Source: Armatimonadota bacterium (GTDB lineage: Bacteria; Armatimonadota; Chthonomonadetes; Chthonomonadales; CAJBBX01). Taken from it: a stretch of 57,763 nt of DNA. The position numbers and the translations under genes were made by a program. Each line of letters starts with the position of its first letter. The stretch's first letter is position 1. The stretch covers positions 1 to 57,763 of the forward strand of contig JAPLCQ010000029.1 in NCBI GenBank assembly GCA_026392115.1, read 5' to 3'. A model generated the notes under the pieces. That model saw nothing but the letters and a program-made list of their open reading frames with translations, had not been told where the DNA came from and did no database searches. Of this stretch, positions 1-15,959 are shown in pieces.

Positions 1-102
1 CTTCAGGCTCGCCAGCACCATCCAGAGGAAGGGCAGCAGCATCGTCAGGGCCACCAGGCTCAGGCCCAGGTAGATCAGTACGGTCCGGATCGGTTTGGCC
101 AT
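1..102 (-). CDS. Sugar ABC transporter permease, MalG-like (N-terminal fragment)
   Basis: Only the first 34 codons lie in the window; the gene runs off the left edge. The visible peptide starts MAKPIRTVLIYLGLSLVALT and continues as one hydrophobic segment ending in a short polar stretch, as expected for the first membrane helix of a carbohydrate ABC permease. Its ATG overlaps the TGA of the upstream MalF-like permease by one base (TGATG), so the two are almost certainly translationally coupled. Order (binding protein, first permease, second permease) is the classic CUT1 sugar-importer arrangement. The identity as the MalG-type partner is inferred from position, since no EAA loop is visible in this fragment. 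Confidence 0.75.
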   Translation of the reverse strand, partial: MAKPIRTVLIYLGLSLVALTMLLPFLWMVLASLK

Positions 103-1082
103 CAGTAGCTCACCTCCCGGTTGCCGAACTTCCAGTTGATGGCCGTCGCCGCGAAGACGAGCGCGAAGAGCACCCATGAGGCAGCCGACGCATAGCCGAT
201 CTGGAACTCCTCGAAGGCCTTGGTGTAGATATGGTATGCCAGCGTGGTGGTGGTGCCTGCCGGACCTCCGGCGGTCATGACCCGGGCCTGCTCAAACCCG
301 CCCTGCAGGCCGCCGATGAAGCTCATCACAACGATGAAGAACGTGGTCGGGGCGAGCTGCGGCCAGGTCACGTTCCGGAACACCTGCCACGGTCCGGCTC
401 CGTCGAGCTCGGCCGCCTCGCTGAGTTCCTGAGGCACGTTGGTCAGCGCGGCCAGGTAGAGCAGCATGTTGTTTCCGCCCACGGCCGTCCAGATGCCCAT
501 GATGATGATGGCGTCGCGGGCGCCGATGCCCAACTGCTTGGCCGCAAAGCCGACCTTCTCCACGTCGAGGCCCAGCACGTTCTGCGTCGAGAGAAGCCAC
601 TGCGGCGCGGCGATGGAGAGGTGCAGGCTATGGGTCACCCAGTCGATCATGGCGTTGACCGGACCGAAGTCCGGGTTGTAGAGCGCCTTCCAGAGGATCA
701 TCAGGGCCACGCCGCTGGTGAAGCTGGGCAGGTAGAAGAGCGTGCGGTAGATCACGATGCCCTTCAGCTTCTGGCTCAGCATCATGGCCAGGCAGAGCGA
801 TCCCGCGATGGCAAGCGGCATGCCCAGCAGGAAGTATGCCGTGTTCACCGCATAGAGGTGGAACTCGGGGTCGGCCAGGAGCCTGCCGTAGTTCCCAAAG
901 CCGACCCAGCGGAACGGCACGGTCTGCTGCAGGTTCCAGTTCGTGAAGCTGGCGGCCAGCGAGAAGATGACGGGCCCGCTCGTGAAGATGACGAAGCCCA
1001 GGAAGTTCGGCAGCAGGAAGAAGAGGGCGGCCACGGTGTCGCGGCGGTTCCGGGCCTCTCCCGGGCGAAGTTTGCCGGTCAC
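102..1082 (-). CDS. Sugar ABC transporter permease, MalF-like
   Basis: A 326-residue inner-membrane permease of the binding-protein-dependent (CUT1) sugar importer family. About six hydrophobic segments are visible, and the cytoplasmic EAA loop that docks the ATPase reads EAAELDGAGPWQVFRNVTWP near residues 222-241. The start is GTG, overlapping the stop of the binding-protein gene (GTGA, 4 bases); the stop overlaps the next permease start. No ATPase gene is visible, which is common because a shared MsiK/UgpC-type ATPase can be encoded elsewhere. The transported sugar cannot be read from sequence. Confidence 0.9.
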   Translation of the reverse strand: MTGKLRPGEARNRRDTVAALFFLLPNFLGFVIFTSGPVIFSLAASFTNWNLQQTVPFRWVGFGNYGRLLADPEFHLYAVNTAYFLLGMPLAIAGSLCLAMMLSQKLKGIVIYRTLFYLPSFTSGVALMILWKALYNPDFGPVNAMIDWVTHSLHLSIAAPQWLLSTQNVLGLDVEKVGFAAKQLGIGARDAIIIMGIWTAVGGNNMLLYLAALTNVPQELSEAAELDGAGPWQVFRNVTWPQLAPTTFFIVVMSFIGGLQGGFEQARVMTAGGPAGTTTTLAYHIYTKAFEEFQIGYASAASWVLFALVFAATAINWKFGNREVSY

Positions 1083-2440
1083 TGGGCGCCTCCTGGGGCC
1101 GTGCGGCCGGTTGTCTCGCGGTAGCGCCGCGCCAACTCGGGGTCCTGCTCCAGCCCGCGGGCGATCTCGCGGTTCAGCTGGAGGGCTGCGTCGCGCATGG
1201 CTTCTTTGGCGGTCTTCTGGTTGTTCTTGACCAGGTCGAGCTGTTTGTTCAGCAGCCTGAGCGCCACCTGGCCGTTGATGAAGGGGGAGTACTGGTCGGG
1301 CGTGGCCCGCTCCAGGGCGTCGCGCCAGACGACGTTGTAGTCCTCTTCAGGGTGCTTGGGGTTCATCAGGTAGCGCGGCTCATAGGCGAACTTCACCACC
1401 GGACCCAGGGCGTCGGCCTGGTCGCTGATGAGCTGGTTGTAGTCGCGACCGGCCTGGTAGATGAGGAACTTCAGGGCCTCCTGCCGGTGCGGGCTGTTCT
1501 TGTTGATCAGGGTCCCCTTGCCATAGCCTCGGAAGACCCGCTTGACGCTGTAGGGGCACTCCACCACTCCCAGCCGCAGCCCCTTGTAGTCGCGCAGGGT
1601 GCAGAGCCACCAGCGGCCGCCCAGGGCCATGGCGCCCTTGTCGGCGCCGAACCGGGTGATGGTCCCGGAGCCCCAGCCTCCCTGGGTGGCCATGGCGGCC
1701 TCCTCAACCGGGCTGGGCATCACCTTGTACTTGTAGATCAGGTCATACAGCAGTTGCACCGCGGCCACCGTCTCCGGCGAGTCCACGACGCACCGCGTAC
1801 CATCCTCCGAGTAGACCCGGCCGCCGAACTGGTAGACGAAGTGGAGCCACTGCCACCACTCGCACATGAACCCGAACTGCGTGGCGCGGCCGTTGGCGTC
1901 GCGATGGGTCAGCCGTTGGGCGAGCTTGATGAACTCCGGCCAGCGCCACGGGCCCTTGGGATAGGGGATGCCCTCGCGGTCGAAAATGCTCTTGTTGAAC
2001 CAGACCGCGTCGGCGCCCACGTTGTTGCCGAACCCGTAGGCTCGGCCCTCATAGATCGAGTCCGCTTGCACGGCCTTCCAGGTCTGCTTGGCGGGGTCGA
2101 GGCCCAGCTTGGCCAGTTCGTCGGTCACGTCCCAGGCGATGCCGGACTTGACATAGGCCGAAAGCTGGAAGGTGTCGTAGCAATCGAACAGGTCGGGGCC
2201 AACCCCTGCCAGCGACTGAACGATCACCTTCTCCATGCCCGTGTTGTTCGGGTCCAGCCGCAGCGTGAGGTCTTTGTGCAGCCGGTTGAAGAGGCTGATC
2301 TGCTCACGGCGTGCCGGGTTGTCGTCGGAGACCCACGTGAGCGCCGTCTTGCCGGGCTCGGCCACGTTGGGCCGTATAGACCAGGCCAGGAGCGAGAGCC
2401 CTATCAGGACGACGAAGGTTACGGCGAAGAAGACGCGCAT
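1079..2440 (-). CDS. Extracellular sugar-binding protein of ABC transporter (family 1)
   Basis: About 453 residues. An N-terminal hydrophobic segment (MRVFFAVTFVVLIGLSLLAW) is followed by a family 1 solute-binding fold: a ligand-exposed region rich in Trp/Tyr (MCEWWQWLHFVYQFGGRVYS), a WFNK strand, and repeated aromatic positions typical of sugar binding. No lipobox cysteine is evident, so it may be anchored by the uncleaved N-terminal helix. I prefer ATG at 2440 over the in-frame GTG at 2452, because the GAGG ribosome site sits directly against the GTG but about ten bases from the ATG. First gene of the sugar-importer operon that continues leftward. Confidence 0.85.
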   Translation of the reverse strand: MRVFFAVTFVVLIGLSLLAWSIRPNVAEPGKTALTWVSDDNPARREQISLFNRLHKDLTLRLDPNNTGMEKVIVQSLAGVGPDLFDCYDTFQLSAYVKSGIAWDVTDELAKLGLDPAKQTWKAVQADSIYEGRAYGFGNNVGADAVWFNKSIFDREGIPYPKGPWRWPEFIKLAQRLTHRDANGRATQFGFMCEWWQWLHFVYQFGGRVYSEDGTRCVVDSPETVAAVQLLYDLIYKYKVMPSPVEEAAMATQGGWGSGTITRFGADKGAMALGGRWWLCTLRDYKGLRLGVVECPYSVKRVFRGYGKGTLINKNSPHRQEALKFLIYQAGRDYNQLISDQADALGPVVKFAYEPRYLMNPKHPEEDYNVVWRDALERATPDQYSPFINGQVALRLLNKQLDLVKNNQKTAKEAMRDAALQLNREIARGLEQDPELARRYRETTGRTAPGGAQ

Positions 2441-2519
2441 GCGGGTGGTCACCTCGATAGTTGCACTGGTAGATTACTCCCGCACCGCCCCGTTTCCTGC
2501 CCTGCGCCGCTCGCAGTTG

Positions 2520-2540
2520 CCGGGTAACCTTAATACCCGG
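2520..2540. promoter_or_regulatory. Inverted repeat in divergent intergenic region (candidate operator)
   Basis: CCGGGTA - 7 bases - TACCCGG is a perfect 7-bp inverted repeat with an AT-rich centre, midway between the divergently transcribed sugar-importer operon and serC. Position and symmetry suit a dimeric repressor, for example of the LacI or GntR type, but no regulator gene is adjacent. It could alternatively form a small RNA hairpin. No good sigma-70 promoter pair was found nearby on either strand. Confidence 0.35.
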
Positions 2541-2589
2541 GGAGTGCGGCGGTCGACTCGCCCCGGAATCCGCGCGCACGGAACAGGCA

Positions 2590-3675
2590 ATGAAACGCAT
2601 CTTCAACTTCAGCCCGGGGCCGGCCGTTCTGCCCGAGGAGGTCCTTCGTCAGGCGTCGCAGGCCGTACTGGAGGTCGATGGATCGGGAATGTCGATCCTG
2701 GAGATAAGCCACCGGGGCCGTGAGTTCGCCGCGATCCACGCGGAGGCGAAGGCGGCCTTGCTGCGTGTGCTGAACCTGGATGCCAACGAGTACGAAGTGC
2801 TCTTCCTCGGCGGCGGCGCCAGCTTGCAGTTCGCCATGCTGCCCATGAACTTCCTGTGCGAGGGCCGCTCGGCCGACTATGTGGACACCGGCGAGTGGTC
2901 TCTCAAGGCCATGAAGGAGGCCCGGCGCTACGGCCGTGTGCGCGTGGTGGCCTCTTCTTCAGCCGCCCACTACTCCGAGATTCCGACATTCGAGCCCCCC
3001 GCGTCCGACGCCGCCTACTACCACATCACCACGAATAACACGATCGAGGGGACCCAGTGGTGCGACCTGCCCGTCACCGGGGTCACGCCGCTGGCGGCGG
3101 ACATGTCTTCCGACTTCATGGCCCGCGACATCGACCACACACGGTGCGCCTTCATCTACGCCGGGGCTCAGAAGAATGCCGGTCCCGCGGGCGTCACGGT
3201 TGTTATCGCGCGACGCTCGTTCCTATTCCATGCCGCACCGGACCTGCCCGCCATGCTTGCCTACGCCACCCATGTTAAGAACGACTCCCTCTACAATACG
3301 CCGCCGGTCTTCGGCATCTATGTGGTGGGTCTGGTGGCGCAGTGGGTCGAGGCCCAGGGCGGTCTGGCAGGGGTCGAGGCGCGCAACCGGCGCAAGGCGG
3401 CGCTGATCTATGCCGCGCTGGATGCCTATCCCGACGTCTTCGACGCCCCCGTGCGCCGCGTCTGCGACCGGTCTATCATGAACATCGTTTTCCGCCTGCG
3501 CGACAAGAACCGTGAGCCGGCCTTCCTGCTGGGCGCCAAGGAGCGCGAGATGAGCGGCCTCAAGGGGCACCGCTCCGTGGGTGGTTTCCGCGCGTCGGTC
3601 TACAATGCCTTCCCGCATGAAGGCGCAGAGGCGCTGGCCGACTACCTCACCAGCTTCGCCGAGGGGCGCGCATGA
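2590..3675 (+). CDS. serC: Phosphoserine aminotransferase
   Basis: 361 residues, the usual SerC length. Converts 3-phosphohydroxypyruvate plus glutamate to phosphoserine in cytoplasmic serine synthesis (and a related step in pyridoxal phosphate synthesis). The N-terminus NFSPGPAVLPEEVL and the SHRGREF motif match the bacterial SerC family; the PLP-binding lysine is K195 in YAGAQKNAGPAG. The C-terminal GGFRASVYNAF segment is the usual substrate-binding arginine region. The gene has only a weak ribosome site. It stands apart from the divergent sugar operon and is followed 18 bases later by the CDF-type start. Confidence 0.95.
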   Translation: MKRIFNFSPGPAVLPEEVLRQASQAVLEVDGSGMSILEISHRGREFAAIHAEAKAALLRVLNLDANEYEVLFLGGGASLQFAMLPMNFLCEGRSADYVDTGEWSLKAMKEARRYGRVRVVASSSAAHYSEIPTFEPPASDAAYYHITTNNTIEGTQWCDLPVTGVTPLAADMSSDFMARDIDHTRCAFIYAGAQKNAGPAGVTVVIARRSFLFHAAPDLPAMLAYATHVKNDSLYNTPPVFGIYVVGLVAQWVEAQGGLAGVEARNRRKAALIYAALDAYPDVFDAPVRRVCDRSIMNIVFRLRDKNREPAFLLGAKEREMSGLKGHRSVGGFRASVYNAFPHEGAEALADYLTSFAEGRA

Positions 3676-3693
3676 CGGGGCTCCTGCCCTAAC

Positions 3694-6600
3694 ATGGCCG
3701 GGCACTGCCACGCCGAGCACATGGCCGACGCCGGGCGACGCCTGGGCGTCTCCATGGCGCTGACCTTCGCGTTCGTCGCCTTCGAGGCCGTCGTGGGGAT
3801 GCGGTCGGGGAGCCTTGCACTCCTCTCCGACGCGGGGCACAACTTCGCCGACGCCGTTGCGCTGGCTCTATCGTGGTACGGGCTCTCCGCCGCCCGGCGG
3901 CCCGCCACCGCCCGGCGGACCTACGGGTTCCACCGCGTCGCGATCCTGGCTGCGCTGGCCAACTCGGTCTCTCTCGTGATCATCGCGCTGGGCATCTTCT
4001 GGGAGGCCTGTCAGCGTCTGGGCAAGCCCGGCGAGGTGCAGGGCTTCGCCATGGTCTGGACCGCCGCGGCGGCCATACTGATCAACGGCCTCATCTCCTA
4101 CTGGCTGCACGCCGGCTCCAAGCACGACATCAACATCCGGAGCGCCTACATCCATATGCTCGGTGATGCCGTTTCCGCCGTCGGCGTCGTGGCGGCGGGC
4201 CTCATCATCAGTCGGACCGGCTGGTCGGCGGCCGATCCCATCGTCTCGCTGGCCATCGGCGCCCTGATCCTCTACAGCAGCTGGGGCGTCCTGCAGGAGG
4301 CGGTAGATGTGCTGATGGAGGCCACTCCGGCCGGCCTCGACCTGGCGGCGGTTGAGGGGGACCTGATGGCGCTTTTGAACAAGGGTAGGGGAGGCTGGGC
4401 TATGGTCCGTGCAATGCGTCTGTTGCTCGCGGTCTGCGCCGTGGCGTCGTTGGCGACGGCCCAGGAGCCGCCCGTGCCCAGTGCGATCCGGTTCGCCCGG
4501 CACCCGGCGCTCTCTCCCGACGGTCGGACCCTGGCGTTCGGCTACAAGGGGGACATCTGGACCGTTCCCGTCACGGGCGGCGCGGCACAGCGCGTCACCG
4601 TCCATTCCGCGCATGACCAGCTTCCCGCGTGGTCGCCGGACGGCAAGTGGCTGGCCTTCTCCTCCAAGCGCGAAGGGAACTACGACGTCTATGTGATCCC
4701 GGCCGCAGGCGGTACCGCCAAGCGGCTGACCTACCATAGCGCCGACGATGCCGTGAGCGGATGGTCCCCCGACGGCGCCGAAATCCTCTTCGCATCTTCG
4801 CGTGAAGCCACGCGGACAACCGCCATCTATGCCGTGAACGTGAAGAAGGGCTCATCGCGGCTGGTGCGGTACGACGATGAGCCGCTGGGCAACGCGTGCA
4901 TGAGCCAGGACGGGAAGCTGATCGCCTGCACCCGCTCCGGTTCATGGACGCGCAAGGGCTATCGCGGCTCCTCGAACTCCGACCTGATGCTCATGACGGC
5001 CGCGGGAGCGCAGGGCGAGCTACTGACCAGGACGCCGCACAACGAGCGATGGCCGCTCTTTGCGCCTGACGGCAAGATCATCTATTACGTTTCGGACCAG
5101 ACCGGCGCCGCCAACATCTACCGCCGACGGCTGGGCGAGAAGCCCACTGAGCAGGTGACGCGCTTCACCGCCGGTACCATCTTCTACCCGTCGATTGCCC
5201 GCGACGGATCGGCCATCGCCTTCGAGCGCGATTTCGGGATCTGGCGGCTGGACCTCAAGACGCGCGAACTCCGTGAGATTCGGGTGACGGCCGCCTCAGA
5301 TGATCGCGAGAACAGCGTTCGGAAGACGGTCTATGTGAACAGCGTGCAAGAGGCGACGCTCTCGCCGGACGGCAAGCAGGTGGCGTTCATCGTCCATGGC
5401 GAGGTCTTCGTGCAGCCGGCCTCCGGCGGCGAGGCCGTGCGCATCACCGACACCCCGCAGCGCGAGGAGGACGTCACCTGGTCGCCCAACGGCAAGGAGG
5501 TGGCCTTCACCTCCGACCGCACCGGCGAGCCCGACATCTACATCGCCACCGTGCCCGGCAAGGAGACGCGCAAGCTGGTGGGCGCCAAGGAGACGGCCGA
5601 GTGCGTGCCGGTCTATTCGCCCGACGGCAAGCAGGTGCTGTTCCTGCGCGGCGGCGATGGCCAGGAGCTCTGCGTGATCCCGGCCGCGGGCAGCGATGTC
5701 AAGGTGGTGGCCCGCGGTCCCAGCATCGGTGGGCACGCCTGGTCGCCCGACGGGAAGTGGGTGACCTACCATCTCGTGAAGTCGCACTCGGCCGGCACCA
5801 TCGGCTCGTTGCATCTGCTCTCCATGGAGAACGGGTCTGACACCGACATCTCGCGGTATCCCGGCGTAACGGCCGACGCGCAATGGTCCGCCGACGGCAA
5901 GACGCTTGCCTTCCAGTCCAACCGGAGCGGTAAGAATCAGGTCTACTCGCTGTCCCTCAAGGAGATGCGATGGACCTACGGTGCAGACGAGGGAGCCGCC
6001 GCCGCCGTCCGTCCTGTCGCCACGCGCAGGCGCACTTCGGGCGAGGGTGGAGCCGATGCGGCTGCCGCACCTCCGGCCGCACCTGTGAAGGTCGTCGTCG
6101 ACCTGGAGGAGATCCACACCCGTCCCAAGCAGGTCACCTCAAGCGACACGGGCACCACTTCGTACGCCATTTCGCCCGACGGTCAGACGATCTGGTTCTT
6201 CATGAGTACGCTGGGCCGCTCGGATCTCTGGAAGGCGCCTGCGGCGGGCGGGGCCTCAACACGGATCACGCAGTCCGGCGAGAGCGGTCGGGCCATGCAG
6301 TTCAGCCCCGATGGATCGACGATCTACTGGATCGCGGGCGGTCAGCTCAAGAGCCTGCCCACCGCCTCCGCCGCGGCTGCCGCGCCCTCCTCGGCTGCCG
6401 CAACCGGTCCTGTGCCGTCTGCGCTCTCCTTGACCGCGACCATGGACCTGGACATGCGGGCCGAACTGACCCAGATGTTCGATGAGGCGTGGCGCAAGAT
6501 GCGCGACGGCTTCTACGACGAGAAGATGCATGGCTGCGACTGGAACGCCCTTCGGGAGCGCTATCGACCTGTGGTGGCGGACATCACCTACCGCGAGGAC

Positions 6601-7605
6601 TTCTACACGCTGTTCAGCCTGGCCCTCGGCGAGCTCAACGCGAGCCATACCGGCATCTCCGGCGCCCGCGATTCCGAGGGCGCCGCAACCGCCGCGTTCG
6701 GCGTCACGTTTGACGACGGCTTTGCGGGACCCGGCGTCAAGGTCGCCACCGTGGTCGAGCGTACCCCCGCGGCGTCGGTAGGCGGCAGGCTGGTTCCAGG
6801 GGATGTGGTGACGGCTGTCGACGGCGCCGCGGTGGCCCACAACGAGGAGCTCTACCGCCTGCTGGCCGATAAGTCCGGCAAGAAGCTGTCTCTCACGGTC
6901 GCCGCCGACGGCAAGACGCGCACCGTGACCATGCGGCCGATCTCGGGCGCCGCGCAGCGCAGCCTGGCCTACGAGCACTGGGTCCGTGAGCGCCGCGGCC
7001 TTACCGAGAAGCTCTCCGGCGGCCGGTTCATCTATGTCCACATGAACGGCATGGGCGTCACCCAGTTGGAGGAGTTCCGGCGTGTCGCACTCGCGGATGC
7101 ACAGGGCAGCGATGGGCTGGTGCTTGACCTCAGGTTCAACGGCGGCGGCAGCGTGGCCGATGAGATGTTCAGCATCATCAACAACCGCGTCTTCGGCTAC
7201 CGCACGCTCCGGGGTAGTCCCGAGCGGCTCCCTGCGCCCATGCCTGCGTCTACAAAGCCCATGGTGGTGCTGATCAACGGCCAGTCGTTCAGCAATGCGG
7301 AGGTCTTCCCCTGGGGCTTCCGCGGCCTTGGTCTTGGGAAGACCGTGGGTGTGCCCACCAACGGGTCGGTCATCGGCACAGGCAGCACGACGCTGATCGA
7401 CGGCAGCAGCCTTCGGATGCCCGCGGTCGGCAGCTTCACGCTGGACGGCAAGGACATGGAGCTGAACGGCTGTCCGGCCGACATCGAAGTGGAGCTCACT
7501 CCCGCCGACATCGTGGAGAACAAGGACCGGCAGCTCGAGGCCGCCGTAGCCGAACTGCTCAAGACCGCGGGGCCCGCCCGCGAGAGAACGCAGGGACGCA
7601 AGTAG
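3694..7605 (+). CDS. Cation diffusion facilitator membrane domain fused in frame to tricorn-like protease
   Basis: One uninterrupted frame of 1303 codons. Residues 1-230 are the membrane part of a ZitB/CzcD-like zinc/cation efflux protein: six hydrophobic segments, the metal-site HxxxD in TM2 (H49, D53 in DAGHNFAD) and the second HxxxD in TM5 (H154, D158 in HMLGD). Homology stops near residue 228, exactly where the roughly 80-residue cytoplasmic domain of CDF proteins (normally beginning with a VHDLHVW-type strand) should follow. Instead, with no stop codon, the frame runs into a signal peptide and a complete secreted protease (see the entry starting 4402). Either the CDF gene lost its 3' end by deletion and now reads through, or a genuine fusion is made. 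Because the second half has its own ribosome site and signal peptide, two translation products are likely. Confidence 0.75.
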   Translation: MAGHCHAEHMADAGRRLGVSMALTFAFVAFEAVVGMRSGSLALLSDAGHNFADAVALALSWYGLSAARRPATARRTYGFHRVAILAALANSVSLVIIALGIFWEACQRLGKPGEVQGFAMVWTAAAAILINGLISYWLHAGSKHDINIRSAYIHMLGDAVSAVGVVAAGLIISRTGWSAADPIVSLAIGALILYSSWGVLQEAVDVLMEATPAGLDLAAVEGDLMALLNKGRGGWAMVRAMRLLLAVCAVASLATAQEPPVPSAIRFARHPALSPDGRTLAFGYKGDIWTVPVTGGAAQRVTVHSAHDQLPAWSPDGKWLAFSSKREGNYDVYVIPAAGGTAKRLTYHSADDAVSGWSPDGAEILFASSREATRTTAIYAVNVKKGSSRLVRYDDEPLGNACMSQDGKLIACTRSGSWTRKGYRGSSNSDLMLMTAAGAQGELLTRTPHNERWPLFAPDGKIIYYVSDQTGAANIYRRRLGEKPTEQVTRFTAGTIFYPSIARDGSAIAFERDFGIWRLDLKTRELREIRVTAASDDRENSVRKTVYVNSVQEATLSPDGKQVAFIVHGEVFVQPASGGEAVRITDTPQREEDVTWSPNGKEVAFTSDRTGEPDIYIATVPGKETRKLVGAKETAECVPVYSPDGKQVLFLRGGDGQELCVIPAAGSDVKVVARGPSIGGHAWSPDGKWVTYHLVKSHSAGTIGSLHLLSMENGSDTDISRYPGVTADAQWSADGKTLAFQSNRSGKNQVYSLSLKEMRWTYGADEGAAAAVRPVATRRRTSGEGGADAAAAPPAAPVKVVVDLEEIHTRPKQVTSSDTGTTSYAISPDGQTIWFFMSTLGRSDLWKAPAAGGASTRITQSGESGRAMQFSPDGSTIYWIAGGQLKSLPTASAAAAAPSSAAATGPVPSALSLTATMDLDMRAELTQMFDEAWRKMRDGFYDEKMHGCDWNALRERYRPVVADITYREDFYTLFSLALGELNASHTGISGARDSEGAATAAFGVTFDDGFAGPGVKVATVVERTPAASVGGRLVPGDVVTAVDGAAVAHNEELYRLLADKSGKKLSLTVAADGKTRTVTMRPISGAAQRSLAYEHWVRERRGLTEKLSGGRFIYVHMNGMGVTQLEEFRRVALADAQGSDGLVLDLRFNGGGSVADEMFSIINNRVFGYRTLRGSPERLPAPMPASTKPMVVLINGQSFSNAEVFPWGFRGLGLGKTVGVPTNGSVIGTGSTTLIDGSSLRMPAVGSFTLDGKDMELNGCPADIEVELTPADIVENKDRQLEAAVAELLKTAGPARERTQGRK
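4402..7605 (+). CDS. Tricorn-like S41 protease with own internal start
   Basis: From ATG 4402 the product is 1067 residues. AGGGGAGG at 4387-4394 lies seven bases upstream, and the protein opens with a signal peptide (MRLLLAVCAVASLATAQ), so this is probably the real start of an exported protease. Order: N-terminal beta-propeller built from PD40-type repeats (LSPDGRTLAF, WSPDGKWLAF and others, to about residue 650), the tricorn C1 region with the catalytic histidine H710 in MHGCDW, a PDZ domain (about 763-846), and the S41 core with DLRFNGGGS and the nucleophile serine S964 in SFSNAEVF. Bacterial tricorn homologues degrade peptides; export points to the periplasm or exterior. Length and motifs are complete, so activity is plausible. 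Confidence 0.88.
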   Translation: MVRAMRLLLAVCAVASLATAQEPPVPSAIRFARHPALSPDGRTLAFGYKGDIWTVPVTGGAAQRVTVHSAHDQLPAWSPDGKWLAFSSKREGNYDVYVIPAAGGTAKRLTYHSADDAVSGWSPDGAEILFASSREATRTTAIYAVNVKKGSSRLVRYDDEPLGNACMSQDGKLIACTRSGSWTRKGYRGSSNSDLMLMTAAGAQGELLTRTPHNERWPLFAPDGKIIYYVSDQTGAANIYRRRLGEKPTEQVTRFTAGTIFYPSIARDGSAIAFERDFGIWRLDLKTRELREIRVTAASDDRENSVRKTVYVNSVQEATLSPDGKQVAFIVHGEVFVQPASGGEAVRITDTPQREEDVTWSPNGKEVAFTSDRTGEPDIYIATVPGKETRKLVGAKETAECVPVYSPDGKQVLFLRGGDGQELCVIPAAGSDVKVVARGPSIGGHAWSPDGKWVTYHLVKSHSAGTIGSLHLLSMENGSDTDISRYPGVTADAQWSADGKTLAFQSNRSGKNQVYSLSLKEMRWTYGADEGAAAAVRPVATRRRTSGEGGADAAAAPPAAPVKVVVDLEEIHTRPKQVTSSDTGTTSYAISPDGQTIWFFMSTLGRSDLWKAPAAGGASTRITQSGESGRAMQFSPDGSTIYWIAGGQLKSLPTASAAAAAPSSAAATGPVPSALSLTATMDLDMRAELTQMFDEAWRKMRDGFYDEKMHGCDWNALRERYRPVVADITYREDFYTLFSLALGELNASHTGISGARDSEGAATAAFGVTFDDGFAGPGVKVATVVERTPAASVGGRLVPGDVVTAVDGAAVAHNEELYRLLADKSGKKLSLTVAADGKTRTVTMRPISGAAQRSLAYEHWVRERRGLTEKLSGGRFIYVHMNGMGVTQLEEFRRVALADAQGSDGLVLDLRFNGGGSVADEMFSIINNRVFGYRTLRGSPERLPAPMPASTKPMVVLINGQSFSNAEVFPWGFRGLGLGKTVGVPTNGSVIGTGSTTLIDGSSLRMPAVGSFTLDGKDMELNGCPADIEVELTPADIVENKDRQLEAAVAELLKTAGPARERTQGRK

Positions 7606-7611
7606 CTCCGG

Positions 7612-9024
7612 ATGCTGTTCAACTCGTTCGCGTTCGGCGTCTTCGCGTGCTGCTTCTTTCCGGTCTGGCGGTTGCTGCGCGATCAGTTGAAGCCGAGGCT
7701 GGTGTTCCTGATCCTGGCCTCTTTCATCTTCTACGGCGCGTGGGACTGGCGGTACCTGTTCCTGCTGGTCTATACGGGGCTGATCGACTTCACTGCGGGC
7801 ATTGCCATGGAACGCCGGCCGGAGCGCAAGCGCCTCTGGCTGGCGCTCTCACTCGTGGGCAATGTCGGCTCGCTGCTGATCTTCAAGTACTCCGGCTTCG
7901 CGGCCCGAGCGGTCAACGCTCTGCTCAGCGTCGCCCACGCCCCGTTGAGCGTGCCGGTTTATGACCTGATCCTTCCTGTGGGCATCAGCTTCTACACCTT
8001 CGAATCGCTCAGCTACACCATCGATGTCTACCAGGGGAGGGCAAAGGCCACCCGGGACCCGGTGCAGTTCTTCGCGTTCCTCTCCATGTTCCCACACCTG
8101 GTCGCGGGGCCGGTGATCCGTCCGTACGACCTCCTCCCGCAGATACTCGCAAACCGCAGGCCCACGGCGGAGCAGATGTGGGAGGGGACGCGCCTCATCA
8201 TCCACGGGCTGTTCAAGAAGATGGTGATCGCCGACCAACTGGCTCCGGCTGTGAACGCCGCCTACAGCCAGGCGCAGGCGCCGCAGTCGGCGCCCTACTG
8301 GTGGGTGATCGCCACCATGTTCTCGCTCCAGATCTACTGTGACTTCAGCGGGTACACGGACATCGCGCGCGGCCTCGCCAAGTGGATGGGCTACGACTTC
8401 CCGCTCAACTTCAACCACCCCTGCATCTCTCGGTCCATGCGGGAGTTCTGGACGCGGTGGCACATCTCGCTCTCGACCTGGTTCCGCGACTACCTCTACC
8501 GACCGCTGGGGGGCTCTCGCAAGGGCGTCTGGGCCGCACACCGGAACCTGTGGATCACCATGCTCGCGTCGGGGCTATGGCACGGCGCCGGTTGGCACTT
8601 CATCGTGTGGGGCGCCATCCATGCGTTCTACATCAGCGTCGAGCGCCTGACGCGGTGGCCCGAGCGGCTCGCCCGGATGCGGTGGGGGCGCGCGGCCGCG
8701 ACGCTGGTCTGCATCATGCTGGTCGACATCGCCTATGTGCCCTTTCGGGCGTCGGACCTGGGCCAGGCGCTGAGTGTGCTCTCTGTGATGCTCAATCCCG
8801 CCTGCGGCTCGTGGGCGCCGGTCGCCGCCATCAGCATGCCCGCCCTCGTTGCGGCCGCGCTGGCCATAGGACGAGAGGCGTACCACTACCATGGATGGGG
8901 TGACTCGGCCTGCTGGCGCTCCAACGCCGGGAGGGCGATGGAGCCCGTCTACCTCGCGCTCATACTGGCCATGTGCGTCTTCCTGCGCGGACCCGGCGCC
9001 GCGTTCATCTACTTCCAGTTCTAG
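7612..9024 (+). CDS. MBOAT-family O-acyltransferase (AlgI-like)
   Basis: 470 residues, with about ten membrane helices. Family members such as AlgI and DltB move acyl (usually acetyl) groups across the inner membrane toward cell-surface polysaccharides. Visible signatures are FIFYGAWDWRYL near the start, the FWTRWHISLSTWFRDYLYRPLGG block, and the catalytic-histidine helix GLWHGAGWHFIVWGAIHAFY. It begins six bases after the protease stop, with only a weak ribosome site, suggesting co-transcription. No AlgJ/AlgX/SGNH partner is nearby, but the next gene encodes a secreted right-handed beta-helix protein. The acceptor polymer is unknown. Confidence 0.9.
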   Translation: MLFNSFAFGVFACCFFPVWRLLRDQLKPRLVFLILASFIFYGAWDWRYLFLLVYTGLIDFTAGIAMERRPERKRLWLALSLVGNVGSLLIFKYSGFAARAVNALLSVAHAPLSVPVYDLILPVGISFYTFESLSYTIDVYQGRAKATRDPVQFFAFLSMFPHLVAGPVIRPYDLLPQILANRRPTAEQMWEGTRLIIHGLFKKMVIADQLAPAVNAAYSQAQAPQSAPYWWVIATMFSLQIYCDFSGYTDIARGLAKWMGYDFPLNFNHPCISRSMREFWTRWHISLSTWFRDYLYRPLGGSRKGVWAAHRNLWITMLASGLWHGAGWHFIVWGAIHAFYISVERLTRWPERLARMRWGRAAATLVCIMLVDIAYVPFRASDLGQALSVLSVMLNPACGSWAPVAAISMPALVAAALAIGREAYHYHGWGDSACWRSNAGRAMEPVYLALILAMCVFLRGPGAAFIYFQF

Positions 9025-11253: not shown

Positions 11254-11597
11254 AGTGCTGTAGGACGGTCGCATCCCTGTCGTGAGAGCCTGACGCCACG
11301 GTGCGCCGGCTTGATCGCGGGTCCTATGTACCCCTGTGTTGCTCCCAACTCCCCGTACACGTCGATGGCCTGACACAACCAACTCCGTCATGGTCCACCG
11401 TTCGTCGCCCCGCACGGGGCCTCGGCTGTGGGGCCCGTGAGGCTCGCCGCGCATCTTACCGATGTGAGGTGGCTCTGGCTGGCGTAAGGCTGTCACACCG
11501 CTCCCGCGGTTCAGCGCAGACGCACGGCACTGCGTCTCATCGATCAGTCAGCACTTAGCCCCGACCCTTGTTCGGCACACTCTATGGAGGTATTCGC
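11254..11597 (+). other. Long untranslated leader with hairpins
   Basis: Between the promoter and the TTG start I see no credible gene. Hairpins are possible: AGACGCA/TGCGTCT (11518-11524 with 11531-11537, six-base loop) and a CCCCGCACGGGG stem-loop near 11411. I could not match any known riboswitch consensus. The length suggests post-transcriptional control, but that is inference. Confidence 0.35.
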
Positions 11598-14500
11598 TTG
11601 GAGAGATCGACTCGACCCGCGTTCGCGCATGCCCTGGCCGTTGCCGTCCTGTCGGCATTGCAGGTCTCATCGGTCGCCCAGCCGGCGCCGGTATGGGAGC
11701 TTGCCGCCCCCAATCCCCGGTTCGTGGAGTACCAGCTCCATCCACCGACGCAGCCGGGGCTGACGCCTTCTCCGGTGGACTACTCCCATGCGGATGGTGT
11801 TCCGGTTCATGGCGCGATCCGCCGCCTGGGGCCGATTCCGACCGCGTACGACCTGCGCGCCTTGGGCCGAACAACCGCCGTGCGGCAGCAAGACACGTGC
11901 GGGACCTGCTGGGTGTTTGCGTCGTACGCATCGCTCGAGGGTGCGCTGTTGCCCGGCGAGCGTTGGGATTTCTCAGAGAACCACGTCAAGAACACCTCGG
12001 GGTTCGGGGGCGACCCCTGTGTCGGCGGGAACCAGCACAAGGTGCTTGCCTACCTTGCCCGCTGGTCGGGCCCCGTCACGGAGGCCGATGATCCGTACGT
12101 CCCCTATGCGAGCACGTCACCGACCGGGCTCACGGTGCGTAAGCACCTCCAGAATGTGCTGTTCCTGCCCAACAGAACGGGCCCGCTCGATACAACCGCC
12201 ATCAAGAGGGCCATCATGGACGTGGGGCCGGTCTACACTCCCATGACGTGGTCCTCCGCCCAGATGAACCCGGCTACGAACGCCTACTACTACTACGGCA
12301 ACAGGATCGACAACCACGCGGTCGCCATCGTCGGATGGGATGATGGTTACGCCCAGTCTCGCTTCCTGCGGCGGCCCTCTGGTCCCGGCGCTTGGATATG
12401 CAAGAACAGTCAGGGAATCTATCACGACGATGGCGTATACTTTTATGTATCATACTACGATAGCTCTATCGCGTATGATGTGACCGTTTTCACGGCCGGC
12501 GAAGATACGACGAACTACTCTAGAAACTACCAGTACGATCCCATGGGGGATACCGGATATATAGGCTGCGGTAGCAATACGGCTTTCTATTCTAACGTGT
12601 TTACCGCAGAGGCGACCGAGCCCGTGGTGGCGGCAGCGTTCTATGCCGCGTCGCCCGGCACCTCCTACACGGTCCGGCTCTACACAGACGTTGGTGCGAC
12701 GCCGACGTCGGGCAGGCTGGCATCGTCCGCCTCAGGTGTGACCCCCACGGCAGGCTACTTCACGGCGCCCATACCGCCGGCTACAGTGCTCGCGGGCAGT
12801 CGCTTCGCCGTGGCGGTGGAGGTAACCACTCCGACGACCGTAAAGCCCATCCCGGTGGAGTACTACATCAACGGCTATTCACACTGCACGTCCAACCCGG
12901 GCGAGAGCTGGATCAGCGCCGACGGCGTGTCGTGGAGCGACATGGCTACCGTGATCAAGCACGCGAACGTCTGTGTCAAGGCGTTCACCTCCGGCGCCAA
13001 GCCCACATCGCTGTCGGTCGTCGACGCTTCGGGCTCGGCGGGGCAGAGCCTGACGCTCTCCGCCAAGCTTGTGCGGTCGGTCGACCTCGCGGCCCTCGCC
13101 GGGAAGGCGGTCCGTTTCGCGGTGGACGGCCAGGACCTGGGGGCGGCATCGACCTCGGCTTCCGGTGTGGCCGCCATGCCATATACCGTGCCCGTCGGTC
13201 TCGCGGCGGGAACGCATCCGATCGCCTGCCGCTTTGACGGTGACGGTGACCTCGGAGGCTCGCAGGCGGTAGGCAGCCTGGTCGTCGCCAAGGTGGGCAT
13301 GGCTCTGACGATGCAGCCGGCGAGCGGCGTGCCGGGCCAGGTCGTCGGCCTGTCCGCCGTTCTCAGTGTCGCCCTCACCGGCGCGCCGGCACAGGGCCGG
13401 AGCCTCGAGTTCGCGGTCTCTGGCACGGCGGTCGGTACGGTGTCGACGGACGCCGCCGGCCAGGCGTCGCTTGCGTACACGGTTCCGGGCGATGCGGCTG
13501 AGGGGTCGCTGCCGACGACTGCTTCGTTCGCAGGCGATGCCCAGCGGTCCCCGGTAACCTGCTCGTCGACGCTGGCGGTGACAAAGGGCGCCTCCGTCGT
13601 CACGGTGTCTGCGGTATCCGGCTACGTCGGTCGCGCCCTTACGCTGAGCGCTTCGGCATCCCGAGCGGTCGACGGTCGACCGCTGGCCGGTGCGGCACTC
13701 AGCTTCTCCGTGGACGGTGTGGCGGTGGGCTCCGCCGTTGCCGGTGCATCCGGTGATGCGCACCTGGGCTATTCGCCGGTCGAGGCCCTGCGCGGCCGCT
13801 CGGTCGACGTGGCTGTAGCATTCGCCGGGGGAGCCGGCCAGCTTCCCGCCGCGGGTTCGGGTCAGCTCGCGGTGGCCCAGTACGACACGACCCTCGCCGT
13901 GCCCGATGTGACGGCGACCGTTGGTTCGGCGGTGGCGCTCAGAGCCACGCTGTGCCGTGTCGGCTCAGGTCCGATCGGGTCGGCCGCAGTCTCCTTCAGC
14001 GTTTCAGGCGTAGACGTCGGCGATGGTGCGACGGACGCGGACGGGGTGGCGTCGGTGGCATACACGTTCGCGCCCGACTTCCTGGCGGGTTCGCTTCCCA
14101 TCCGGGCGGCCTTCGCGGGTTTGGCCAACGAAGGACCATCGGTCGGCGCCGGTCTGCTGTCGATAGGGGGGACCCCGAGCGTCCTCGCCGTCGGCTCGCG
14201 GACCGCGCAGTTCGGCCAGACAGTCTCGCTGTCCGGCGTGTTGACATCGTCATTGGACGGCAAGGCGCTCCGCGGGTACACGGTGTCGGTCTCACTGGAT
14301 GGTACCGCCCTTGGGACCGGCGTTACGGACTCGACCGGAGCAGGCGGCATCCGGTGGACGGTTCCCACCACCGTGGCCGCCGGTCCGCACAAGACGACCG
14401 TCTCATTCGCCGGCAACGCCGCTTACGGGCCGTCGGAGGGATCGGGCACTCTCACCGTCACGACCGCCGACTCGCTGCTCTCGATCGCGCCGGTCACGGC

Positions 14501-15959
14501 AGCCCCCGGCCAGACGGTCGACCTGATTGCCGTGCTCCGACACGGGATCACACTGGTCGGTCAGCCCGGCAAGGTGGTCGCGTTCAAGATGGCCTCCACG
14601 GCTCTGGGCTCGGCCACCACCGATGGAACGGGAACAGCGACGTTCGAGATGGCCCTGCCACTGGATACCGGCGCCGGAACCTACGCCTCGTCGGCTTCGT
14701 TTGCCGGTGATACCTGGCTCGGATGCCGGTCGGCGTCATCAACCCTGACCGTCTTGGGGCAGGCGTCGACCACATTGTCGCTCCGAGCCCTCTCCGCGGA
14801 ACCCGGTGAGGCTGTCGGCCTGGACGCGCTCCTTCTTCGCTCCTCGGACTCGTGCCCGCTGGCCGGGCTGGCCGTTGCATTCACGGTGGATGGAGCCGCG
14901 GTCGGTAGCGCTATGACCGATGCGGCGGGCCACGCGGTCCTCTCGTACACGGTCGCCGCGACGGCCGGCATCGGCTCACTGGCCACGTCCGCCGCGTTCG
15001 GCGGAACCGCTTCGTACGCCGCCGCCGCCGCGTCGAGCTCCATCACGGTGGTGCGCTTCGCCACGGCGATGAGCGTGCCGAATGTGGTCGGCCGGGCCGG
15101 GCAGGCAGCAGTCCTCCGCGCGGTCCTCTGCCGTGCCGCGTCCGGCTCGGCGGTCCCGGGCGCCACCGTGGCCTTCTCGATCGACGGGCTGGCCGTTGGG
15201 GCGACCGTTACGAATGCGGCAGGATCTGCCGAGCTGCCATACACCCCGCCCGCCACCATGGCCGGCGGCCTTCATCCTGTCGGCGCCGCATTCACGGGTT
15301 CGGTCGTCGATGCGCCATCCTCGGGTTCGGCCGCGCTCTCCATCGGCCTGACCGATGTTGTCTACTCGATCTCAACCCAGTCGGGTTCGGCTACACAGAC
15401 GGTTGCGCTGTCATCCAGAATCCGCAGGAAGCAGGACTTGGCTGCGCTGTCCGGTCTTGTGGTCACCGTGAAGGTTGTGGGCACCGCCGTGGGCGCCGCC
15501 ACGACCGGAGCCGACGGCCTCGCGGTGGTGCGGTGGTATATAGCACCAGGCACCACCGCGGGCGCCAAGGCGGTGGTGGGCGAGTTCGCCGGCACTGCGA
15601 GCTATGCCGCTGCATCAGCTTCTACGTCACTGACCGTGCTCGCCAAGGCGCCAACCTACTGCTGGGTGGGCTCGAAGACGGTCACGGTCGGCGCGACGGC
15701 GACGCTCGTGGGCTTTCTTTACCAGGTCATGCCTGACGGCGCGTTGCCGCCGTTGGCAGGCAAACCCACGACATGGTCGGTCGACGGCGCCCGGGTCGGC
15801 GCCTGCACGTCGGCGCTGGATGGCCGGTGCTCCGCGACGTATTCCGTGCCCGCGACATGGGCCGCGGGCTCCAAGCACACGCTTCAGCTGGAATATGCGC
15901 CGGGCGCGGACCCCGTCTACTCGGGCTCGGTTGGGTCGGCGCAGCTCACAGTGAACTGA
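11598..15959 (+). CDS. Secreted papain-like (C1) cysteine protease on a stalk of Ig-like repeats
   Basis: 1453 residues. I chose TTG 11598 because GGAGG at 11586-11590 is seven bases upstream; an earlier in-frame TTG at 11568 has no such site. After a signal peptide ending near VSSVAQ, residues 75-300 form a C1A peptidase: QDTCGTCWVF with catalytic C104, H240 in DNHAVAIVGW, and N270 in CKNSQG. No normal propeptide is obvious. A lectin-like domain (about 330-460) follows, then ten Ig-like repeats of about 95 residues each to the C-terminus. It should act outside the cell, held away from the surface by the repeats. No LPXTG, dockerin or outer-membrane anchor is seen. The segment 12420-12600 is clearly richer in A+T than the rest. 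Confidence 0.9.
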   Translation: MERSTRPAFAHALAVAVLSALQVSSVAQPAPVWELAAPNPRFVEYQLHPPTQPGLTPSPVDYSHADGVPVHGAIRRLGPIPTAYDLRALGRTTAVRQQDTCGTCWVFASYASLEGALLPGERWDFSENHVKNTSGFGGDPCVGGNQHKVLAYLARWSGPVTEADDPYVPYASTSPTGLTVRKHLQNVLFLPNRTGPLDTTAIKRAIMDVGPVYTPMTWSSAQMNPATNAYYYYGNRIDNHAVAIVGWDDGYAQSRFLRRPSGPGAWICKNSQGIYHDDGVYFYVSYYDSSIAYDVTVFTAGEDTTNYSRNYQYDPMGDTGYIGCGSNTAFYSNVFTAEATEPVVAAAFYAASPGTSYTVRLYTDVGATPTSGRLASSASGVTPTAGYFTAPIPPATVLAGSRFAVAVEVTTPTTVKPIPVEYYINGYSHCTSNPGESWISADGVSWSDMATVIKHANVCVKAFTSGAKPTSLSVVDASGSAGQSLTLSAKLVRSVDLAALAGKAVRFAVDGQDLGAASTSASGVAAMPYTVPVGLAAGTHPIACRFDGDGDLGGSQAVGSLVVAKVGMALTMQPASGVPGQVVGLSAVLSVALTGAPAQGRSLEFAVSGTAVGTVSTDAAGQASLAYTVPGDAAEGSLPTTASFAGDAQRSPVTCSSTLAVTKGASVVTVSAVSGYVGRALTLSASASRAVDGRPLAGAALSFSVDGVAVGSAVAGASGDAHLGYSPVEALRGRSVDVAVAFAGGAGQLPAAGSGQLAVAQYDTTLAVPDVTATVGSAVALRATLCRVGSGPIGSAAVSFSVSGVDVGDGATDADGVASVAYTFAPDFLAGSLPIRAAFAGLANEGPSVGAGLLSIGGTPSVLAVGSRTAQFGQTVSLSGVLTSSLDGKALRGYTVSVSLDGTALGTGVTDSTGAGGIRWTVPTTVAAGPHKTTVSFAGNAAYGPSEGSGTLTVTTADSLLSIAPVTAAPGQTVDLIAVLRHGITLVGQPGKVVAFKMASTALGSATTDGTGTATFEMALPLDTGAGTYASSASFAGDTWLGCRSASSTLTVLGQASTTLSLRALSAEPGEAVGLDALLLRSSDSCPLAGLAVAFTVDGAAVGSAMTDAAGHAVLSYTVAATAGIGSLATSAAFGGTASYAAAAASSSITVVRFATAMSVPNVVGRAGQAAVLRAVLCRAASGSAVPGATVAFSIDGLAVGATVTNAAGSAELPYTPPATMAGGLHPVGAAFTGSVVDAPSSGSAALSIGLTDVVYSISTQSGSATQTVALSSRIRRKQDLAALSGLVVTVKVVGTAVGAATTGADGLAVVRWYIAPGTTAGAKAVVGEFAGTASYAAASASTSLTVLAKAPTYCWVGSKTVTVGATATLVGFLYQVMPDGALPPLAGKPTTWSVDGARVGACTSALDGRCSATYSVPATWAAGSKHTLQLEYAPGADPVYSGSVGSAQLTVN
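13001..15956 (+). repeat. Ten tandem Ig-like repeats (protein level)
   Basis: Each unit is about 95-100 residues and follows one pattern: a G-x-x-V-x-L strand, then LAG..V.F.VDG..VG, a T(D/S)A.G.A.L.YTVP turn, an A.FAGDA.Y strand and a closing SGTLTV. The copies are diverged at DNA level, so expansion is not recent. The same module appears as two copies at 18340-18921 and three copies at 37960-38860. Confidence 0.8.

Follow-up and report, generated by a model that had tools for sequence, protein, structure and literature searches.

A single open reading frame in the window (the whole 57,763-nt stretch of DNA analysed here, contig JAPLCQ010000029.1 of an Armatimonadota bacterium) raises the question of whether a cation diffusion facilitator (CDF) exporter and a tricorn-type protease have become one protein, or whether two separate genes only appear joined. 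The frame runs through 1303 codons and is uninterrupted, as the sequence-only reading had stated in noting that no stop codon precedes the protease. Pfam assigns to it Cation_efflux, PD40 repeats, Tricorn_C1, PDZ, and Peptidase_S41 domains, which confirms that in the assembled sequence a CDF membrane domain and a tricorn-type S41 protease do lie in one frame. The source assembly consists of 181 contigs and is estimated at 98.64% completeness and 1.53% contamination. A promoter and terminator scan of positions 3500–4600 found neither. The features of the locus are listed in Table 1. We consider it probable, from sequence comparison, that a recent lineage-specific deletion of 270 nt joined the CDF and tricorn frames and that the result is not a selected fusion.

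Table 1. Features of the joined frame and their positions in the window.
Feature	Position	Strand	Basis
Joined open reading frame, 1303 codons	3694..7605	+	ORF listing
CDF Cation_efflux membrane domain, residues 19–208	3748..4317	+	Pfam
HNFAD, HxxxD metal motif, TM2	3838..3852	+	Motif position
HMLGD, HxxxD metal motif, TM5	4153..4167	+	Motif position
CDF C-terminal (ZT_dimer) remnant, 14 residues	4333..4374	+	Congener ZT_dimer 214–287; homology end 4374
Putative deletion junction, 8 bases unaligned to G001; breakpoints placed to within several bases	4375..4382	+	Alignment
Protease ribosome-binding site AGGGGAGG, kept in both congeners	4387..4394	+	Sequence and comparison
Tricorn-type S41 protease gene with its own conserved ATG	4402..7605	+	Pfam and comparison
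Probable protease signal peptide, 20 residues	4402..4461	+	By eye; hydropathy peak at residues 236–254

The exporter part has a complete membrane domain. The Cation_efflux match (PF01545, residues 19–208, E 9.4e-39) covers profile positions 3–198 of 198, and the first 236 residues scored 200.8 bits against the CDF superfamily model TIGR01297 (cut-off 82.35). HxxxD motifs were found at residue 49 (HNFAD) in TM2 and at residue 154 (HMLGD) in TM5, the two helices that carry the CDF metal site. The earlier description of an intact membrane domain with both HxxxD sites is borne out by the profile end reached and by these motifs. In a helix scan, five of the six expected CDF helices were above threshold; TM2, which bears a metal motif, was below it. 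ZT_dimer, the usual but not universal CDF dimerisation domain, was undetected in the window protein by Pfam up to an E value of 1, and was found in all four relatives scanned (E 2.6e-12 and 1.9e-12 in the two congeners described below). It occupies residues 214–287 in the congener protein, and only its first 14 residues (214–227) are left in the window protein. The cytoplasmic domain, reported as missing in the sequence-only reading, is thus gone as a detectable domain but survives as a 14-residue remnant. The proposed cut at the domain boundary did not hold, since the break sits 14 residues inside ZT_dimer and homology to the congeners ends at 4374. Two other CDF genes in this genome are 29% and 33% identical and have complete C-terminal domains (CTDs); no compensating ZitB-like copy was found in the genome.

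In the protease part, propeller repeats, C1, PDZ, and S41 domains follow one another in the order of a tricorn-type protease (Pfam). The ribosome-binding site AGGGGAGG, the 7 nt after it, and the ATG at 4402 are present in all three genomes compared (the window genome and two congeners), and the bases preceding the site differ. The first 20 residues resemble a signal peptide with an AxA-type end, judged by eye, and a hydropathy peak of 1.85 was located at residues 236–254 of the joined frame. Conservation of the ribosome site and the start across the three genomes makes it probable that separate protease is still produced from this ATG, and the embedded start suggested in the sequence-only reading is supported to that extent.

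We compared the locus with that of two uncultured Chthonomonas sp. assemblies, G001 (CAJBBX010000040.1) and G002 (CAISJD010000106.1). Both congeners carry a cluster of class-V aminotransferase, CDF, tricorn, and MBOAT genes, and the CDF homologues at the same place are 97 and 96% identical to the window protein. In each congener a full 309-aa CDF with ZT_dimer ends at a TAG stop, and after a 48-nt spacer a separate tricorn gene follows in the same frame. The distance from the CDF ATG to the tricorn ATG is 708 nt in the window and 978 nt in each congener, so that exactly 270 nt (90 codons) are lacking in the window; in the alignment, the congener CDF genes extend 82 more codons to the TAG, followed by the 48 nt and the tricorn ATG. 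Blastn of the window against G001 gave two blocks, 1–4374 at 90.1% and 4383–9020 at 85.8% identity, separated by 278 bases in G001 and 8 bases in the window, and G002 showed the same net difference. Since CDF homologues stand at the same place and the 270-nt difference is identical in both congeners, the joined frame is more than a chance juxtaposition. The missing DNA was not found elsewhere in this genome, while the same query, serving as a positive control, found it in G001 and G002; location of the missing domain on another contig was therefore rejected. A recent deletion, offered earlier as the plain explanation, agrees with the stop codon and full CDF C-terminal domain of both congeners and with the 270 nt lacking here. 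The same comparison of relatives had been proposed as a check, and its outcome means that an assembly gap may also lie behind the difference. The close collinearity with the congeners extends no further than the MBOAT gene: from 9025 onward the only aligning pieces are 69–73% identical and lie about 1 kb farther along in the congeners.

Next, we surveyed the phylum. In a first search, some CDF match was found in 59 of 61 genomes, the window genome included. With a close match defined as E up to 1e-30, 71 of 291 phylum genomes had one, at 72 places. The frame around the window-genome match is 1309 aa long, and those at the other 71 places range from 196 to 469 aa; the two shortest (G257 and G262) are cut off by a contig end. 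In each of the 26 further CDF loci aligned, the frame extends at least to residue 287 of the 309-residue query. Among 17 fetched loci tested for both genes, CDF was found in 15, with tricorn beside it in the two congeners only; the other two had tricorn without CDF. A fusion common to relatives was rejected: neither congener and none of the 68 other close-match phylum genomes has a long joined frame. Thus the joined frame was found in one of the 291 genomes (71 with a close CDF match) and in a single species, and there is no evidence for an established CDF-protease fusion protein. The suggestion that a joined zinc exporter and protease would be novel gained no positive support from this survey. 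In the titles and opening abstract lines of papers found for cation diffusion facilitator together with tricorn, no CDF-tricorn fusion is described. One phylum relative (G057:C31:57471-58967) has a 734-aa frame with two consecutive CDF matches, possibly a tandem CDF protein. Elsewhere in the window, a 1463-aa open reading frame at 11568–15959 seems, by eye, to begin as a papain-like cysteine protease and to continue in many repeated Ig-like segments.

To estimate constraint, substitutions were assigned to branches. Exporter codons 1–224 have 5.8 nonsynonymous and 28.2 synonymous changes on the window branch, compared with summed counts of 11.8 and 79.2 for the two congener branches; the two ratios are not different (p 0.57, Fisher test on rounded counts). 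About 96 nonsynonymous changes would be expected under neutrality over the whole window branch. Adding the junction-edge codons 225–228 gave 8.8 nonsynonymous versus 28.2 synonymous changes on this branch (p 0.12). Constraint on the protease is unchanged (p 0.48), and the substitutions unique to the window genome are at positions variable in the CDF family. Decay of the exporter was rejected, there being no excess of amino-acid changes over either stretch. It follows from the undecayed exporter part that the deletion is very recent, or that the part is still useful, or that the deletion is not real. The MBOAT acyltransferase gene (7612–9024) has a raised rate of amino-acid change on the window branch, with a dN/dS of 0.24 where both congener branches have 0.08 (Fisher p 2e-4). 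These changes are distributed over the protein and do not come from a local frameshift.

In the favoured reading, the loss of 270 nt would have taken about the last 82 CDF codons, the stop, and part of the spacer from a ZitB-like CDF exporter gene. With both genes in the same frame beforehand, the loss of 270 nt, a multiple of three, would have joined their frames. Ribosomes starting at 3694 would read on into the protease, and others would start at the intact 4402, so that the normal exported protease would still be made. In CDF exporters the chain is on the inner side after six helices. The protease signal peptide in the read-through product could for this reason serve as a seventh membrane helix that runs from inside to outside and puts the protease on the outer side, within reach of cleavage by signal peptidase. 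The remaining exporter, which lacks the cytoplasmic dimerisation domain, is probably impaired: MamM lost its function when its entire CTD was deleted (PMC4994047), and OsMTP8.1 conferred no manganese tolerance with six of seven C-terminal deletions (PMC4995437). Loss of function is not certain, because some CDF proteins are stated to lack a CTD (PMC4994047); a search of PMC7864060 for CTD-less CDFs gave no passage.

Against the favoured reading stand the occurrence of the joined frame in one genome only, on one contig of a 181-contig assembly, and the rise of the nonsynonymous count to 8.8 with codons 225–228 included. The lack of membrane-domain decay would also fit a useful truncated exporter or an artefact. 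An assembly error, in which the species has a full CDF gene and the 270 nt were lost in short-read assembly or strain merging, is in our view rather unlikely but deserves weight. The restriction to one genome, the fragmentation into 181 pieces, and the undecayed exporter part speak for it, but the alignment, inspected by eye, shows no repeat at either end by which a stretch could have been skipped, hardly any other gaps interrupt the flanks against both congeners, and the missing DNA is on no other contig.

A functional translated fusion, in which a CTD-less exporter with a tethered protease is kept by selection, could draw on the frame being open throughout, on a topology compatible with a seventh helix, and on purifying selection acting on both parts on the window branch. 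We regard it as very unlikely: none of the other 70 phylum genomes with a close CDF match has it, the two congeners included, and with a start of its own and a signal that looks cleavable, the protease would be released. As evidence of selection the joining counts for little, since once the stop is lost, frame alone gives a one-in-three chance of it. That a newborn fusion is translated, one deletion having tethered tricorn to a CTD-less zinc exporter while the internal start makes free protease, giving two proteins from one frame, is unlikely. It is most improbable that the shortened exporter is functional without a CTD and that read-through into the protease is only a harmless side effect; the intact metal motifs, the lack of decay, and the CDF proteins stated to lack a CTD (PMC4994047) are in keeping with it, but all 28 close homologues examined retain the CTD, an indication that the subfamily depends on it.

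If the 270-nt deletion is real, the locus is a clean natural example of two neighbouring same-frame genes that merged when a domain and a stop were lost while the start of the second gene stayed intact, and it offers a test of how far a CDF membrane domain tolerates CTD loss. No new protein family is revealed, and automatic annotation would misname the product a 'CDF-tricorn' protein.

Compared with the congener cluster, the window has the same genes, order, frame, and protease start, but the 270 nt that in the congeners hold the CDF C-terminal domain and the TAG stop are missing. With CDF zinc exporters of the ZitB and ZnT (SLC30) type, the exporter part shares the Cation_efflux domain, the TIGR01297 match, and the HxxxD motifs in TM2 and TM5; unlike them it is without most of ZT_dimer, which the 28 close homologues keep. 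The protease shares propeller repeats, C1, PDZ, and the S41 core with tricorn protease (PDB 1k32, family S41) and aligns with it through the catalytic region, where SH is paired with SH and a Ser with a Ser in the S41 core; these may be among the catalytic residues of 1k32 (His, Ser, and Glu being those sought). In contrast to 1k32, the window protease has a signal-peptide-like start and is probably exported, and its reading frame continues upstream into the CDF gene.
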